From Spiribacter salilacus (GTDB taxonomy: Bacteria; Pseudomonadota; Gammaproteobacteria; Nitrococcales; Nitrococcaceae): 64,000 bases of DNA. The stretch spans positions 186,001 through 250,000 of the forward strand of contig NZ_WJPP01000004.1 in the NCBI RefSeq assembly GCF_009649225.1, in the 5' to 3' direction. The position numbers and the translations under genes were made by a program. Below are positions 54,366-60,780 of the stretch, piece by piece. The notes below the pieces were generated by a model. That model was not told where the DNA came from and made no database searches. It saw only the letters and a program-made list of their open reading frames with translations. Position 1 is the stretch's first letter; each line of letters opens with the position of its first letter.

Positions 54366-55226
54366 GTGAGTCGAACGGTTTATGTGAATGGCCAATACCT
54401 GCCGGAGGCCGAAGCCAGTCTGTCTATATTCGATCGTGCGGTGCTGTTTGCAGACGCGGTTTATGAGGTGGCTGCCGTGATCGATGGGGCGCTGGTGGAT
54501 TACCCAGCCCATCAGCAGCGCCTTGCGCGAAGCCTAAAAGAGCTAGGTATACCCCTGCCTGTCGATCCCGATGCCTTGTTGGATATTCATCACGAATTGC
54601 TCAGAAAAAACGCATTAACCGAAGGTTTGATTTATCTGCAAGTATCTCGCGGGTGTGCGGATCGTAATTTCTTAATGCCACACAAGGCAACGCCGTCTTT
54701 AGTGCTGTTTACTCAAGCTATGCCTTTGCTGGACACCGTGGCAGCAACCAACGGGCTTCGCGTTATTTCTCGGCCGGATATGCGCTGGGGAAGGCGCGAT
54801 ATTAAAACCACGCAGCTATTGTTTGCCTCGATGATGAAAACCGAGGCGGTTGCAGCGGGGGTTGATGATGTGTGGTTGCATGAACAGGGTATGGTAACGG
54901 AGGCCAGTTCTTCCAACGCGCATATTATTAACGATGCCGGGGTGTTGGTAACACGCCCTTTGTCTAATGAGATTTTGCATGGCATTACGCGCGCCGCCGT
55001 TTTAGATTATGCCGCTGAATCAGGCATGCAGGTGGAGCAGCGAACATTTAGCTTAGAAGAGGCCAAGACGGCGCGAGAGGCGTTTATAACCAGTGCCACC
55101 GCGTTTGTGACACCGGTTGTAGAGATCGATGGCGTTGCGATTGGAACCGGTCGGCCAGGCCCGGCTACACAACGCCTTCGCGAGCTTTATATTTTAAGGA
55201 GCCGATCCACCCATGGCGGCCTCTAG
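54366..55226 (+). CDS. dat: D-amino-acid aminotransferase
   Basis: A fold-type IV PLP aminotransferase of 286 residues that interconverts D-amino acids and keto acids, for example D-alanine and D-glutamate for peptidoglycan. Lys147 in RRDIKTTQLLFASMMKTEA is the Schiff-base lysine. VYVNGQYLPEAEASLSIFDRAVLFADAVYE and EASSSNAHII are family motifs, and the pattern fits D-alanine aminotransferase more than IlvE. GTG start with GGAGG upstream. The 3' end overlaps dsbG by 33 bases, the longest convergent overlap in the window. Confidence 0.88.
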   Translation: MSRTVYVNGQYLPEAEASLSIFDRAVLFADAVYEVAAVIDGALVDYPAHQQRLARSLKELGIPLPVDPDALLDIHHELLRKNALTEGLIYLQVSRGCADRNFLMPHKATPSLVLFTQAMPLLDTVAATNGLRVISRPDMRWGRRDIKTTQLLFASMMKTEAVAAGVDDVWLHEQGMVTEASSSNAHIINDAGVLVTRPLSNEILHGITRAAVLDYAAESGMQVEQRTFSLEEAKTAREAFITSATAFVTPVVEIDGVAIGTGRPGPATQRLRELYILRSRSTHGGL

Positions 55227-55946
55227 CGTTTCATCCTGAGGCAATCCACGTACCACTCGAATATCGCCCTCTGCATCGCGATAATAAACCGATGGGGTGC
55301 CGGATAAACCCAACTGCGCCATTAATTGGTTGTTAGACTGAACCGCTTGAAGATCTGCCTCTTGTAGACCGGCCCGAGGTGTTATGCCGCCTTGGTCAAA
55401 ACTCTCTTCATGAGCCGCCATCGCTTCAGCAGGGTTTTCTGCACTCAGCAGGGTGGCCGATTTTGGCAAGCTATCCTCACGGAGTACGCCAACCATAATA
55501 TGACGAATCTGTACCGTGCCAGCCTCTACCCAATCGCGAGAGGCATGATAAAAACGAGAGCAAAACGGGCAGTTTGGATCCATAAACGCATACACAATAT
55601 GCTCAGCGTCGTCTGCTCCATCAATAATCCAATTCGCTTGCTCCAGCGCTTCCCACTCCGTTTCCGGGCGTGGTGCATTGGCAGCGGCCTCTAAAATGGG
55701 CTGCGTGAGATTTTGGCCCTCTGCATCAAGTAGCGTTCCAACCAAAACATGCTCACCGTCAGCGGTAACGTAGGCCGCCATGGGTTGGCCTTGAAAGCTT
55801 AGGGTGTAGCCGCTGAGCCCTGCCGGCGCGTCAAAGGCTTCGCCAACCGTGGCGCCGCGCTCTTCAAGCGCCTGAATGGCCTCGGGCTGTGCCAGAGCGA
55901 TGCCGGCATTTAACAGCGCGGCAAGAAACAAAATGCGTAAGGTCAT
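55194..55946 (-). CDS. dsbG: Periplasmic disulfide isomerase, DsbG/DsbC family
   Basis: Start 55946 gives 250 residues with a signal peptide (LRILFLAALLNAGIALAQ). The N-terminal dimerisation domain (about residues 21-85) and linker helix lead to a thioredoxin domain with active site FMDPNCPFCSRF (Cys126, Cys129) and cis-Pro loop LSGTPSVYY. The MDPNCPxC context is that of DsbG. It corrects or protects cysteines of exported proteins. The electron donor (DsbD) is not in the window. Confidence 0.92.
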   Translation of the reverse strand: MTLRILFLAALLNAGIALAQPEAIQALEERGATVGEAFDAPAGLSGYTLSFQGQPMAAYVTADGEHVLVGTLLDAEGQNLTQPILEAAANAPRPETEWEALEQANWIIDGADDAEHIVYAFMDPNCPFCSRFYHASRDWVEAGTVQIRHIMVGVLREDSLPKSATLLSAENPAEAMAAHEESFDQGGITPRAGLQEADLQAVQSNNQLMAQLGLSGTPSVYYRDAEGDIRVVRGLPQDETLEAAMGGSAP

Positions 55947-56017
55947 GGTGCTATCCAGTGTTAACAAATTGATGTGGCTTTGGAGCATTAAGTAGGCCAT
56001 TGAGTTCGCTAAGATGC

Positions 56018-56055
56018 AAAAAAAAACCCGGCTCACCATGCGAGGGGCCGGGTTT
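56018..56055 (-). terminator. Rho-independent terminator of the hip operon
   Basis: Read on the minus strand, a nine-base-pair stem (AAACCCGGC / GCCGGGTTT, 56024-56055, 14-base loop) is followed by an unbroken run of nine T. It begins about 30 bases after the HiPIP stop and ends before dsbG, so it closes the SQR-HiPIP transcript. This is the clearest intrinsic terminator in the window. Confidence 0.88.
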
Positions 56056-56086
56056 GATAAGCGCTTTACTAAGCGCGATCAGTGCA

Positions 56087-56425
56087 TTAGCTAGGCATGG
56101 GGACCCATGCGCTGCACCAGCCGCCATCGGCTACCAGCTTGCCTGGGAATGCCGTGCAACCGCCCCAGTTTGGGGTGTCATTTTCAAGGTAGAGCCGGCA
56201 GTTGCCACAAATTGCACCTTCGGTACGCATCTCATCGCGATCGGCCGCATCGTGAACGTAGTTCAGGGCAATGGCCTGAGGATCATTTTCGTCAAGCTCA
56301 GGCATTTCCTGCGCTAAAACGTTAGAACCCCGCACACTGACGTAGGCCAGCGGTGCTGCGGCAATACCGAGCAATGCTCCGCGAAGCAAACGGCGACGAT
56401 CGTTGTTGAACTGTTGGTCAGTCAT
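56087..56425 (-). CDS. hip: High-potential iron-sulfur protein (HiPIP) with Tat signal
   Basis: A 112-residue precursor of a periplasmic [4Fe-4S] electron carrier. The Tat signal has NNDRRRLLRGALLGIAAAPLAYV. The mature domain has four cluster cysteines at residues 73, 76, 90 and 104 (CGNC, WGGC, GGWCSAW), in the usual C-x2-C-x13-C-x13-C spacing. HiPIPs of purple and sulfur bacteria carry electrons to reaction centres or terminal oxidases. AGGGGA is a strong ribosome site before the ATG. The 124-base gap to the upstream gene has room for a second promoter, but I see no convincing one. Confidence 0.95.
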   Translation of the reverse strand: MTDQQFNNDRRRLLRGALLGIAAAPLAYVSVRGSNVLAQEMPELDENDPQAIALNYVHDAADRDEMRTEGAICGNCRLYLENDTPNWGGCTAFPGKLVADGGWCSAWVPMPS

Positions 56426-56549
56426 AGTCTTCCCCTAAATGGTTATGGAAACTTAAATTAAAAACGTTGCAATCTTTGAGCGCAGGTTACCGTTGAAAGT
56501 TGCATTGGAAAAGCATTGCTAGCCATAACCTTGATCCTGAGCAATTGTA

Positions 56550-57506
56550 TTACTCGGGAACGCAGATTCGCCCCTGCTTTGCGGCTTGGGAGGTCAGGAT
56601 GGCGAGCCATAAAATGAGCAAGGTGGTCATGACCAAAAGCATGATCCCTAAGAAAAGTGCCCATGGGGCGGCGGTGAGCTCATGGTAGACAAACGTGGCA
56701 ATGGTGATTGCTGCCATTGGGAACGAATACGCCCAAAATGATAGAAAAAAGGGCAGCCGTGCAAATCTTGCTACCTGTGTGACCATCAGGGCAGTAAAGA
56801 ACAGGCCAACAAAATATAGTATTTGCCCAAATGGCGAGAGCTCACCGGTGAGCGTTGTCCACGCCACAAACCCAATGCCAGGCGGCGCAATCATAATAAA
56901 CAGTGTGGGCAGTAGCCTATTGGGTAATGGGTGATGAAAGAAGATCCGATACAAAACAACCGTTAACAACGGTGGCCAGAAAAAAATACCCACGCTAAAG
57001 CCAAGCCAAGACAGCGTTAATTGCCCGTATTCAACACCGCCAATGGGCAGCAGAACATTACCCACCACCGGAATGAACCAGGCTGGATTGATATGCTCAA
57101 TTTGAAAGTGCTCTTGATGAATCCATAGGTTAATTACGATGATCGTTAACCCCAGATGAGCCACTGCCCCGATGAGCCATAGCGCCTCGCCAATGCTTGG
57201 CGCAATGTCTCTTAATGCCGTGCCAATCAAAAGGGTACTAATGCTTATTGCCGGGAAAAAACTAAGCTTAACCGGATGATTGAACTCAGCCCGCACAAAG
57301 CTGGGGTGGCGCAAGCTTTTTACCAGATAGCTAATGGCAAAAAGAACAAAGCATGCGATGGTTAGCGCCAAGAGGCCCTGCCAAACGAAAGCCGGGGTTC
57401 CAAGCACCCCGGCTGTTTTTTGCCACGCCAAAGTGAGCCCAGAAAGCCCCATAACAACGGCGAAGATGGAAATCGGCAGGTGGGCCAGCCGAGTTGTATC
57501 AGTCAT
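56550..57506 (-). CDS. SLAC1/TDT-family anion transporter (TehA-like)
   Basis: The 318-residue protein has ten hydrophobic helices and the TDT/SLAC1 family layout: LPISIFAVVMGLSGLTLAW in helix 1, INPAWFIPVVGNVLLPIGG in the middle and IAPPGIGFVAW with FFLSFWAYSFPMAAITIA late. The family includes bacterial TehA, plant SLAC1 anion channels and yeast Ssu1 sulfite exporter. In this cassette export of an oxidised sulfur anion is a reasonable inference. It begins three bases after the stop of the small membrane gene. Confidence 0.88.
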   Translation of the reverse strand: MTDTTRLAHLPISIFAVVMGLSGLTLAWQKTAGVLGTPAFVWQGLLALTIACFVLFAISYLVKSLRHPSFVRAEFNHPVKLSFFPAISISTLLIGTALRDIAPSIGEALWLIGAVAHLGLTIIVINLWIHQEHFQIEHINPAWFIPVVGNVLLPIGGVEYGQLTLSWLGFSVGIFFWPPLLTVVLYRIFFHHPLPNRLLPTLFIMIAPPGIGFVAWTTLTGELSPFGQILYFVGLFFTALMVTQVARFARLPFFLSFWAYSFPMAAITIATFVYHELTAAPWALFLGIMLLVMTTLLILWLAILTSQAAKQGRICVPE

Positions 57507-57509
57507 TAA

Positions 57510-57857
57510 CTATCGTGTTTCTCGTAGCATCAGTTGTATGGGTGGATAGCTTAACAGACCGATGGCAATACCCACGCCAATGCCTGCACCAATTACTCCC
57601 AAATAATCGATAACGCTGGTGAGTTGCCCCAACGTGGCCTGCGTCCATGCCGGCATAAATAGCGCTGCGGCAATGCCGGTTACGATGCCAATGCTTGCCG
57701 CCACTTTAATGCCAGAGCCAACGCGAAGTGACTGCCTGCGCAGGATAACCCCGATCAACAGCAGTAGATCGAGCAGAACAACAAGCGCTAGTAACGGCAG
57801 GATAGGCCTGAAGAGCTCAAGGACCACCGCAAAGATGCCAAATAGTGAAAATGCCAT
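57510..57857 (-). CDS. Small membrane protein between SQR and the SLAC1-type transporter
   Basis: I do not recognise a named family. The 115-residue protein has three to four hydrophobic helices: LFGIFAVVLELFRPILPLLALVVLLDLLLLIGVIL (split by Pro), IKVAASIGIVTGIAAALFMPAWT and VIGAGIGVGIAIGLLSYPPIQL. It has no cysteine, histidine cluster or signal peptide. It lies 11 bases behind sqr and 3 bases before the transporter, so it probably belongs to this transport or electron-transfer unit, perhaps as a membrane anchor. Confidence 0.7.
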   Translation of the reverse strand: MAFSLFGIFAVVLELFRPILPLLALVVLLDLLLLIGVILRRQSLRVGSGIKVAASIGIVTGIAAALFMPAWTQATLGQLTSVIDYLGVIGAGIGVGIAIGLLSYPPIQLMLRETR

Positions 57858-57868
57858 GTGAGATCTCC

Positions 57869-59203
57869 TTATACCCGGCCACGCAACATGGCGTTATAAG
57901 CGGCGTGCAACATACGGTCCTTAAGGAACCAAGGTGCCCATTGAGGTTTGTAAGGGTCAAGGAAGCCAAATGAAGGCGTCATCGCTAAGTTGAAATCAAA
58001 TTCAACCAACATGGCTTTGCCTTTTTCAACAATTAATGGACAAGACGTATAGCCGTTCCATGCTGCGGTAAATTCAGATTCCTGAATCGCCGAGACGAGG
58101 TTGTCGGCCACAACGGGGGCCTGTGCCTTTACGCTTGCAGCGGTTTTTCCAATTGGTGTACCCACCACATCGCCCGCACCAAAAATATTCGAATAACGGC
58201 GATGCTGCATGCTGTGCTGATCCACTTCGAGCCAGCCTTTGAAGTTGCCATCCTGCCAGCTGAGCTCACCATCACGAATCATCGCGGGGGCAGACATCGG
58301 CGGCACCACATGGATGAAATCGTAATCCATGGTTTTAAGGCCATCTTCAGTCCTAAACGTCGCCTCACGCCGATCGGCATCAATGGCGGCCAAAGGATGA
58401 CCAAAATCGATAGCAATATCCCGCTGATTCGGGAAATAATCGATGAGGAACTCGTTGATGTCAGGCTGAGAAAAAAGCCCGCCCGCCGGCGGCAGATAAT
58501 GCAGCTCAGCGCGATCGCGGTTGCCTGCTTCGCTGAGTGCATCTTCGATAAGCATGGTGACTTTTAGCGGTGCGCCAGCACATTTAATTGGGCCGGGTGG
58601 ACGGGTAAAAAGTCCAACACCGCCAGTTTCAATAAACGATTGTGCGGCTTGCCAGGTGCGTGCGGCATGATCCGGGTTGGCATACACACAGCCAATGCCG
58701 TTTTGGCCGATTAGATCAGGGCTCATTCCCTCAATCGAATCAAAATTGACCTCAAGACCGGTTGAGATGACGAGGAAGTCATAATCCACCTGAGTGCCGC
58801 CTACGGTTTCCAGACGATTATTGTCAGGATCAAACGTGGCCACATCATCTTTGACCCAGTTAATACCACTGGGCATGTACCGGTCGTTGCTATCGATCAC
58901 TTTTTCAGGCTTCCAGAGCCCTGTGGCCACTAACGTTAAACCGGGTTGGTAATAATGCGCTTCGCGACGATCGATAATGGTGAGCTGTGCACCATCGAGT
59001 TGATTAGATAGCCGAGTAGCAATGGCCAAGCCAGCAGCGCCTGCGCCAACAATCACTATTCGTGCGTTGGTGGAGACTGCTTTTGCTGGTTTGCTGGCCA
59101 TTAAACTGCTGGCGCCCACACCGCTGGCAGCAACGCCAGCTGCTAAGGCAGACTGAGTAACAAAGCGGCGACGTCCGCTGTCGATTGGTGTTAATTTATT
59201 CAT
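57869..59203 (-). CDS. sqr: Sulfide:quinone oxidoreductase, type II-like, with Tat signal
   Basis: This flavoprotein oxidises sulfide to sulfane sulfur and reduces quinone. Start 59203 gives 444 residues with a Tat signal (GRRRFVTQSALAAGVAASGVGA), FAD motif IVIVGAGAAGLAIATRL, and Cys208 in GPIKCAGAPLKVTM and Cys388 in YTSCPLIVEKGK. Those two match the redox cysteine pair of mitochondrial-type SQR (KCAGAPQK and YTSCPLV). Cys172 (GIGCVYAN) is a further cysteine. The C terminus is amphipathic (DPYKPQWAPWFLKDRMLHAAYNAML), as in membrane-associated SQR. A Tat signal puts it on the periplasmic side. Confidence 0.9.
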   Translation of the reverse strand: MNKLTPIDSGRRRFVTQSALAAGVAASGVGASSLMASKPAKAVSTNARIVIVGAGAAGLAIATRLSNQLDGAQLTIIDRREAHYYQPGLTLVATGLWKPEKVIDSNDRYMPSGINWVKDDVATFDPDNNRLETVGGTQVDYDFLVISTGLEVNFDSIEGMSPDLIGQNGIGCVYANPDHAARTWQAAQSFIETGGVGLFTRPPGPIKCAGAPLKVTMLIEDALSEAGNRDRAELHYLPPAGGLFSQPDINEFLIDYFPNQRDIAIDFGHPLAAIDADRREATFRTEDGLKTMDYDFIHVVPPMSAPAMIRDGELSWQDGNFKGWLEVDQHSMQHRRYSNIFGAGDVVGTPIGKTAASVKAQAPVVADNLVSAIQESEFTAAWNGYTSCPLIVEKGKAMLVEFDFNLAMTPSFGFLDPYKPQWAPWFLKDRMLHAAYNAMLRGRV

Positions 59204-59260
59204 AACCAAACCCTCCTCCGAGTCCATTCCATAGGTTCAACGCCATGCGGCTTCACATCA

Positions 59261-59273
59261 GTGACATTGTCAC
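59261..59273. promoter_or_regulatory. Perfect 6-1-6 palindrome upstream of sqr
   Basis: GTGACA-T-TGTCAC is a perfect inverted repeat, 58 bases before the sqr start and just after the selO stop. The one-base centre cannot form an RNA hairpin, so a dimeric repressor or activator site is the more likely reading. The GTGA-N5-TCAC spacing is one base short of a CRP/FNR site. The regulator is unknown. Confidence 0.45.
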
Positions 59274-59275
59274 CA

Positions 59276-60715
59276 TTAGGTGCCGCAATAGGTGGCCGGA
59301 ACGATCTCATCCATGCGGGGTGGACGCAGATACTCCTGCGCATTGACCCCGGGGTTTTGGTAAGGGTTTTGAATGATGGCAAATAGCGCCTCTGCCGGCG
59401 CCATATCTCCATTTTCTGCGGCCTGTAGAGCTTGCTCTACCAAGTGATTTCGTGGAATGACAACCGGATTAGTGCTGGCCATTAGCATTTGCCGTTTGGC
59501 CGGCTGATCAGGCTCTAGGTGCAGGCGTTGCTGATAGTCAGCCCACCATTGCGCCATCCATGCAGGCGGATCCATGCGATTAAGCGCAGAGAAGGTGTTC
59601 GTATAATCGGCTTGTGCCTCGTCCATGGCGGCTAAGAGCGACTCGCCAAGCGCACGGTCGTTGGGCTGCTCGGTCAGCAACCCGAGTTTGCGTCGCATCA
59701 TCTGATCATGTGCTGTTTGAAACTGATCGGGTATTGCGTTGATCATCTCGACCACTGAGTCGAAGGCATTTTCTTCCATTAAGGGCAGTAAGCACTCGGC
59801 AAGACGAGCCAAATTCCACTGGGCGATATGTGGTTGGCGGTTAAATGCATAACGCCCTCCACGATCGACCGAGCTAAATACCCGTTGCGGAGAGTAATGA
59901 TCCATAAAAGCGCAAGGCCCGTAGTCTAAGGTCTCGCCAGATAGCATCATGTTATCGGTATTCATCACGCCATGAATAAAGCCCACGCGCAGCCACTCGA
60001 CGACTAACGAAAGGGTGCGCTGAGTGACCTCCTCCAAAAGACCCCTATACCGTGCTGGCCCTTCCTGTTCGCTTAATGCGGGGTAATGCCAAGCGATAGC
60101 GGCATCAGCCACCGCTTTGAGCCCGTCAATATCGTTGCGATGCGCAAAATATTCAAACGTACCAAAACGCAAATGGCTGCGTGCCACGCGGGTCAAAATA
60201 GCGCCGGGTTCTGGGCCACTTTGGCGGGCAATAGCCTCGCCTGTTCTTGCGGTTGTTAGAACGCGGCTAGTCGGGATGCCCAGCGCGTGCATTGCTTCGC
60301 TAATGAGTAACTCCCGTAAAACGGGGCCGAGTGCGGCGCGACCATCACCCATGCGAGAAAACGGCGTAGGGCCTGATCCTTTTAACTGAAAGTCGTGATA
60401 AACCCCTTTTTGATCAGGTAGTTGACCGAGCAACAGTGCTCGTCCATCGCCAAGTTGCGGCACGGGCGTGCCAAATTGATGCCCGGCATACGCTAGCGCC
60501 ATCGGGTCAGCGTTTAGCGGCAACGGGTTACCGAACCAAACTTGGGTGCCTTCTTTACTGGCAAGCCATTCGGGGTCGATCCCAAAGGCGTGTGCGAGTG
60601 GCTTGTTCACCAGTAGCGGCTTCGGCGCATGTAGTGGCATCGGGTGTTGCCGGAAAAACGCGTCTGACGGCAGCCATTCGGGGTAGCGGTTGATGAATTT
60701 TGATGACATAAACAT
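59276..60715 (-). CDS. selO: Protein adenylyltransferase SelO
   Basis: SelO (YdiU) has a pseudokinase fold and transfers AMP from ATP to protein hydroxyls; in E. coli it acts in redox stress. The 479-residue protein has the family motifs YAGHQFGTPVPQLGDGRALLLG, DFQLKGSGPTPFSRMGDGRAALG, FGTFEYFA and the metal-binding HGVMNTDNMMLSGETLDYGPCAFMD (key HGVMNTDN and DYGPC). It ends VPATYCGT; the conserved C-terminal cysteine replaces the selenocysteine of eukaryotic forms. Divergent from the TAXI gene, with 65 bases between starts. It may be the first gene of the sqr operon. Confidence 0.95.
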   Translation of the reverse strand: MFMSSKFINRYPEWLPSDAFFRQHPMPLHAPKPLLVNKPLAHAFGIDPEWLASKEGTQVWFGNPLPLNADPMALAYAGHQFGTPVPQLGDGRALLLGQLPDQKGVYHDFQLKGSGPTPFSRMGDGRAALGPVLRELLISEAMHALGIPTSRVLTTARTGEAIARQSGPEPGAILTRVARSHLRFGTFEYFAHRNDIDGLKAVADAAIAWHYPALSEQEGPARYRGLLEEVTQRTLSLVVEWLRVGFIHGVMNTDNMMLSGETLDYGPCAFMDHYSPQRVFSSVDRGGRYAFNRQPHIAQWNLARLAECLLPLMEENAFDSVVEMINAIPDQFQTAHDQMMRRKLGLLTEQPNDRALGESLLAAMDEAQADYTNTFSALNRMDPPAWMAQWWADYQQRLHLEPDQPAKRQMLMASTNPVVIPRNHLVEQALQAAENGDMAPAEALFAIIQNPYQNPGVNAQEYLRPPRMDEIVPATYCGT

Positions 60716-60780
60716 AGGCTGGTGTTCAACTTAGAGACGATGCAAACTTAGTCACTCTAACAAGCTGGAGGAGAAGGATC

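Follow-up and report, generated by a model that had tools for sequence, protein, structure and literature searches.

A Tat-signal-bearing sulfide:quinone reductase and a DUF5368-like membrane protein form a conserved gene pair in Gamma- and Alphaproteobacteria

In the window (the whole 64,000-nucleotide stretch of DNA analysed here), the gene of a sulfide:quinone reductase (SQR) with a Tat-type signal is followed by that of a small membrane protein, and the two products very probably act together as one unit that oxidises sulfide at the periplasmic surface of the inner membrane. The pairing of the two genes is firm. The first-pass annotation had proposed a larger cassette; judged from gene neighbourhoods, the conserved unit is smaller, consisting of SQR and the membrane protein.

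Organisation of the locus

Five minus-strand genes, from selO to hip, had been annotated in series, and the coordinates of all five proved accurate. The intergenic gaps of 11, 3 and 124 nt (SQR to membrane protein to SLAC1 to HiPIP) were also correct, and the terminator that follows the HiPIP gene is real. The features are as follows.

59276..60715, minus strand: SelO gene (PF02696, 5.5e-111), 5' of the SQR gene and judged to lie outside the unit
59261..59273, no strand assigned: dyad GTGACAATGTCAC (as read on the minus strand), a conserved operator-like site in the SelO-SQR interval
57869..59203, minus strand: SQR gene, product predicted to be Tat-exported (444 aa, type II-like clade, redox Cys208 and Cys388)
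59078..59203, minus strand: Tat-type signal peptide of SQR, SGRRRFVTQSALAAG...AKA, cleavage point placed by eye
57510..57857, minus strand: gene of the DUF5368-like membrane protein, 115 residues long with roughly three transmembrane helices and an invariant Asp84; an obligate neighbour of Tat-SQR
56550..57506, minus strand: SLAC1/TDT anion transporter gene (PF03595, 2e-52), candidate sulfite exporter and optional member of the module
56087..56425, minus strand: HiPIP gene with Tat-type leader (PF01355, 2e-22), a neighbour in the genus only
56018..56055, minus strand: intrinsic terminator 3' of the HiPIP gene, folding at -20.5 kcal/mol (z -3.7)

Values of dN/dS of about 0.02-0.07, from a comparison of the two closest genomes, indicated purifying selection on the SQR, membrane protein, SLAC1 and HiPIP genes. 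A gene for a DsbG-type thiol isomerase (window positions 55194-56039) lies 3' of the terminator and stays beside the HiPIP gene across the genus, which is also that of Spiribacter sp. IM2438. SoxY had no match in five genus genomes, where the control likewise matched nowhere, and the viral contigs examined gave no signal.

Pairing of the SQR and membrane protein genes

The SQR gene is followed on the same strand by a DUF5368-like gene in 57 of 57 loci on chromosomes and plasmids, the first residue of the profile match lying no more than 86 nt beyond the SQR stop. These loci represent Gamma- and Alphaproteobacteria together with plasmids, and are non-independent samples. The expectation that the cassette genes would be neighbours in related genomes was thus borne out for SQR and the membrane protein, whereas SLAC1 was linked in part only. 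On plasmids of Paracoccus, Pannonibacter, Peteryoungia, Agrobacterium, Nitratireductor and Cereibacter, the pair is kept and all other neighbours differ; in Paracoccus denitrificans PD1222 the two genes are PDEN_RS23370 and PDEN_RS23375 of plasmid 1.

The presence and absence of the two genes also matched exactly among 54 genomes of the window's order: the 34 genomes with the small protein were the same 34 with Tat-SQR, which scored 670-760 bits or was represented by one broken copy (G039). Five further genomes carried a non-Tat SQR alone (342-377 bits), and the small protein was absent from all five. Across 398 Pseudomonadota genomes, SQR scores were bimodal (640-752 bits in 10 genomes vs ≤371 bits); a DUF5368-like gene lay directly downstream of all 10 high-scoring SQRs and beside none of the 20 low-scoring non-Tat SQR loci inspected. 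The DUF5368 profile (PF17336) matched in eight of these 398 genomes, every match adjoining an SQR, and its search of genome G000 returned no match. A mirror-tree comparison of SQR and partner gave a correlation of r 0.90, a similarity that shared ancestry alone can also produce. No fused SQR-DUF5368 protein turned up, the 503-aa open frame of G002 proving to be an overlap of frames. In the genus genome G039, the SQR gene (L049:6105-7447) is frameshifted, with the partner gene and the dyad still in place.

A distinct clade of Tat-SQR

Translation of SQR most likely starts at 59203, at an ATG after GGAGG. With this start, the numbering of the Cys208/Cys388 pair in the first-pass annotation is right, and both residues are invariant in the 57 relatives. 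The hallmarks of type II SQR, namely the FAD Rossmann motif and redox cysteines within KCAGAP and GYTSCP, were present in all 57, and the best PDB match was human mitochondrial SQOR (E 8e-66). The flavoprotein fold and both redox cysteines are shared with type II SQR, which includes human SQOR and bacterial cytoplasmic forms, some of them fused to a BLH_phosphatase domain. Unlike these, Tat-SQRs have a Tat signal, lack a C-terminal tail, possess an obligate membrane-protein neighbour and form a clade of their own (support 100/100), which lies beside the type II forms and human SQOR in an unrooted tree. Their C-termini end 0-2 residues past the NAMLRG-type motif, whereas non-Tat SQRs extend 5-29 aa beyond it.

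An N-terminus of the RR-x-hydrophobic type was found in 57/57 Tat-SQR relatives vs 0/20 non-Tat SQRs. The features expected of a Tat substrate are present in the window's case, with this motif, an uncharged h-region and a TatC gene in the genome. The Tat signal noted in the first-pass annotation is thus present, and it has a precedent: Tat motifs have been reported in Sulfurimonas and other Epsilonproteobacteria, on type II SQRs for which a periplasmic location was proposed (PMC4584964). Those bacteria belong to another phylum than the window's. The consistent Tat-type leader among the 57 relatives supports the earlier proposal of sulfide oxidation on the periplasmic face, a site that we infer from the signal.

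A comparable group has been described in Thioalkalivibrio, where FAD-dependent oxidoreductase group 1954 was placed as sister to type II SQR and its function left open (PMC6382920). Its reported tree position is the same as that of Tat-SQR, and a search of the paper gave no mention of Tat or of a partner gene. Thioalkalivibrio probably belongs to the window's order, in which genomes of family f4 carry the Tat-SQR pair.

Experimental evidence comes from the same genus. The sqr gene of Spiribacter sp. IM2438 was cloned and expressed in Halomonas without its partner, and whole-cell sulfide oxidation was 34.7 vs 25.9 µmol/min/g (PMC8542531). The published cloning primers matched a genus locus (L055) exactly and covered the SQR gene only. 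Because IM2438 Sqr alone raised sulfide oxidation, the Tat-SQR clade holds a functional sulfide-oxidising enzyme. The partner is not the catalytic component, and overexpressed SQR at least can be active without it, although the Halomonas host may carry a DUF5368 gene of its own.

The DUF5368-like protein and its possible roles

The 115-aa protein was joined to DUF5368 (PF17336) by profile search, with a score of 20.3 bits that lies under the curated cut-off of 25 and sets it apart from curated members. It resembles them in size, in its pattern of hydrophobicity and in lying next to Tat-SQR, and appears to be a distant relative, here termed DUF5368-like. Its earlier designation as the new part of the cassette is upheld, but it is not a protein without relatives. 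DUF5368 was not named in the literature searched, with no function on record. A 66-aa frame in G477 (L104:642-842) gave a weak profile match (E 2e-4) with no SQR nearby and was judged a chance match.

A structure model of the protein was poor (pTM 0.30, two sequences), and no fold match was found. Among 57 sequences (numbered from residue 2), positive residues cluster in the loop at 40-51 and at the C-terminus, and Glu14, Pro69 and the invariant Asp84 sit opposite this positively charged side. By the positive-inside rule, these three residues are predicted to face the periplasm, the expected location of SQR. The helices are Gly-rich.

We consider it rather probable that SQR and its DUF5368-like neighbour together make up a membrane-bound sulfide oxidase of two parts facing the periplasm, with the small protein docking or assembling SQR. 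SQR would fold with FAD in the cytoplasm, be exported by Tat and then oxidise sulfide via Cys208/Cys388, passing electrons to quinone. The small protein, with its N-terminus outside, three helices, and Asp84 and the conserved Glu14 exposed to the periplasm, would hold SQR at the membrane or assemble it there, and may influence how the enzyme reaches quinone.

Two other roles deserve consideration. The Tat assembly chaperones known so far are mostly soluble and cytoplasmic, unlike this membrane-bound protein, whose best-conserved charged residues are on the predicted periplasmic side; we regard it as unlikely, if still worth weighing, that the protein serves Tat-SQR in assembly or maturation (for export, FAD loading or insertion) while staying outside the final enzyme. 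Such a role would fit its strict tie to the Tat forms of SQR and the activity of overexpressed SQR on its own (PMC8542531). Somewhat less likely again is a transport role, as a channel or carrier bringing HS- or the product formed in the periplasm (persulfide, polysulfide or sulfane sulfur) across to a cytoplasmic persulfide dioxygenase. Sulfur would have to cross the membrane because SQR is predicted to be periplasmic and the candidate dioxygenase, encoded elsewhere in the genome, has no obvious signal peptide; Gly-rich helices and the invariant Asp84 would suit such a function. However, the protein is small for a transporter, no transporter fold was found with the weak model, and one genus member (G043) keeps the SQR-partner pair but has no persulfide dioxygenase of that type.

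SLAC1, HiPIP and SelO as neighbours

The SLAC1 protein of the window matches the TehA/SLAC1/Ssu1 (TDT) family over its whole length (Pfam SLAC1, 178.7 vs cut-off 27.9 bits). The Phe262 position of HiTehA (WAFSFP) reads WAYSFP here. The protein falls under the NCBIfam cut-off for TehA, and its substrate is putative. It is single-copy in the window's genome, and one close copy per genome was found wherever it is present. Relative to SQR, the gene adjoins (genus), is divergent (G052), lies downstream (G330) or upstream (Pannonibacter), or is separated by a gap (G365, G291); outside these five arrangements it is absent or unlinked. SLAC1 therefore appears to be a recurring yet optional neighbour of SQR.

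In G031, SLAC1, a non-Tat SQR and a candidate persulfide dioxygenase form a group with the dyad upstream; in G009, SLAC1 lies near a persulfide dioxygenase, again with the dyad. The recurrence of SLAC1 near SQR, and at dioxygenase/dyad loci in two genomes of the order, lends indirect support to the earlier suggestion that it moves an oxidised sulfur anion. Sulfite export would fit the dioxygenase linkage in G031 and G009, and the genus SLAC1/TDT protein, encoded in the same gene run as SQR, probably exports sulfite from the cytoplasmic persulfide dioxygenase. The candidate dioxygenase of the window's genome (L149:4989-5873) is on another contig, without a nearby dyad. At L154:6771-8480, DUF2892-like, DsrE-like and SLAC1 genes stand in a row (the first two named by eye), and the dyad lies beside them, as do a Crp/Fnr-like gene and the gene of a persulfide dioxygenase.

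The HiPIP assignment is clear (Pfam HIPIP, 79.9 vs cut-off 22 bits), but the gene has its own 124-nt upstream gap and is linked to SQR in the genus only. The proposal that HiPIP accepts electrons within the unit found no support beyond genus synteny, and HiPIP was set aside as direct acceptor. For a type II-like SQR such as this one, quinone is the simplest destination of the electrons. A link of SelO to the unit was likewise abandoned: within the genus, SelO and SQR lie anywhere between 0.05 and 3.4 kb apart, and the 72-nt interval in the window holds the dyad.

Synteny within the genus alone proves little, because the block is conserved there in its entirety, together with the DsbG gene and that of an aminotransferase. 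A neighbourhood kept by chance or slow shuffling of functionally uncoupled genes fits HiPIP and SelO, but is refuted for SQR and its partner, where we hold it to be extremely improbable, by the persistence of the pair across two classes and plasmids with all else changing and by the exact co-occurrence in 54 genomes.

A conserved dyad upstream of SQR

The dyad GTGACWWWGTCAC precedes SQR in all 14 genus loci and, either unchanged or differing at one position, in nine loci of two other families; one match was observed in the window vs 0.01 expected. In G031 it likewise precedes the group of SLAC1, dioxygenase and SQR genes, and in G009 and G003 it adjoins a Crp/Fnr-like gene (both names assigned by eye). 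A Crp/Fnr-family gene (L047:8916-9713) is divergent from SQR in five of the 14 genus loci, the window's SQR having no such neighbour. The site at 59261-59273 is likely an operator, a function suggested by its recurrence and position. Usual Crp/Fnr sites are one base longer than this 13-bp dyad, so the identity of its regulator is a guess.

Implications for sulfide oxidation

More broadly, a large plasmid-borne and chromosomal SQR clade could tentatively be viewed as a two-subunit periplasmic enzyme, in which DUF5368 gives the membrane and quinone site or passes sulfane sulfur inward. If true, SQR in many Proteobacteria would not be the textbook single-subunit monotopic enzyme. The gene pairing gives DUF5368, a domain of unknown function, a functional lead, and it also bears on sulfide biotreatment, as the sole tested enzyme of the genus was expressed without its partner. 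An earlier study asked if sulfide is oxidised by the group that is sister to type II SQR (PMC6382920), a question on which the sequence-defined clade of putatively periplasmic SQRs bears. The Tat signal and the DUF5368 neighbour could serve as genome markers separating outward-facing from cytoplasmic sulfide oxidation.
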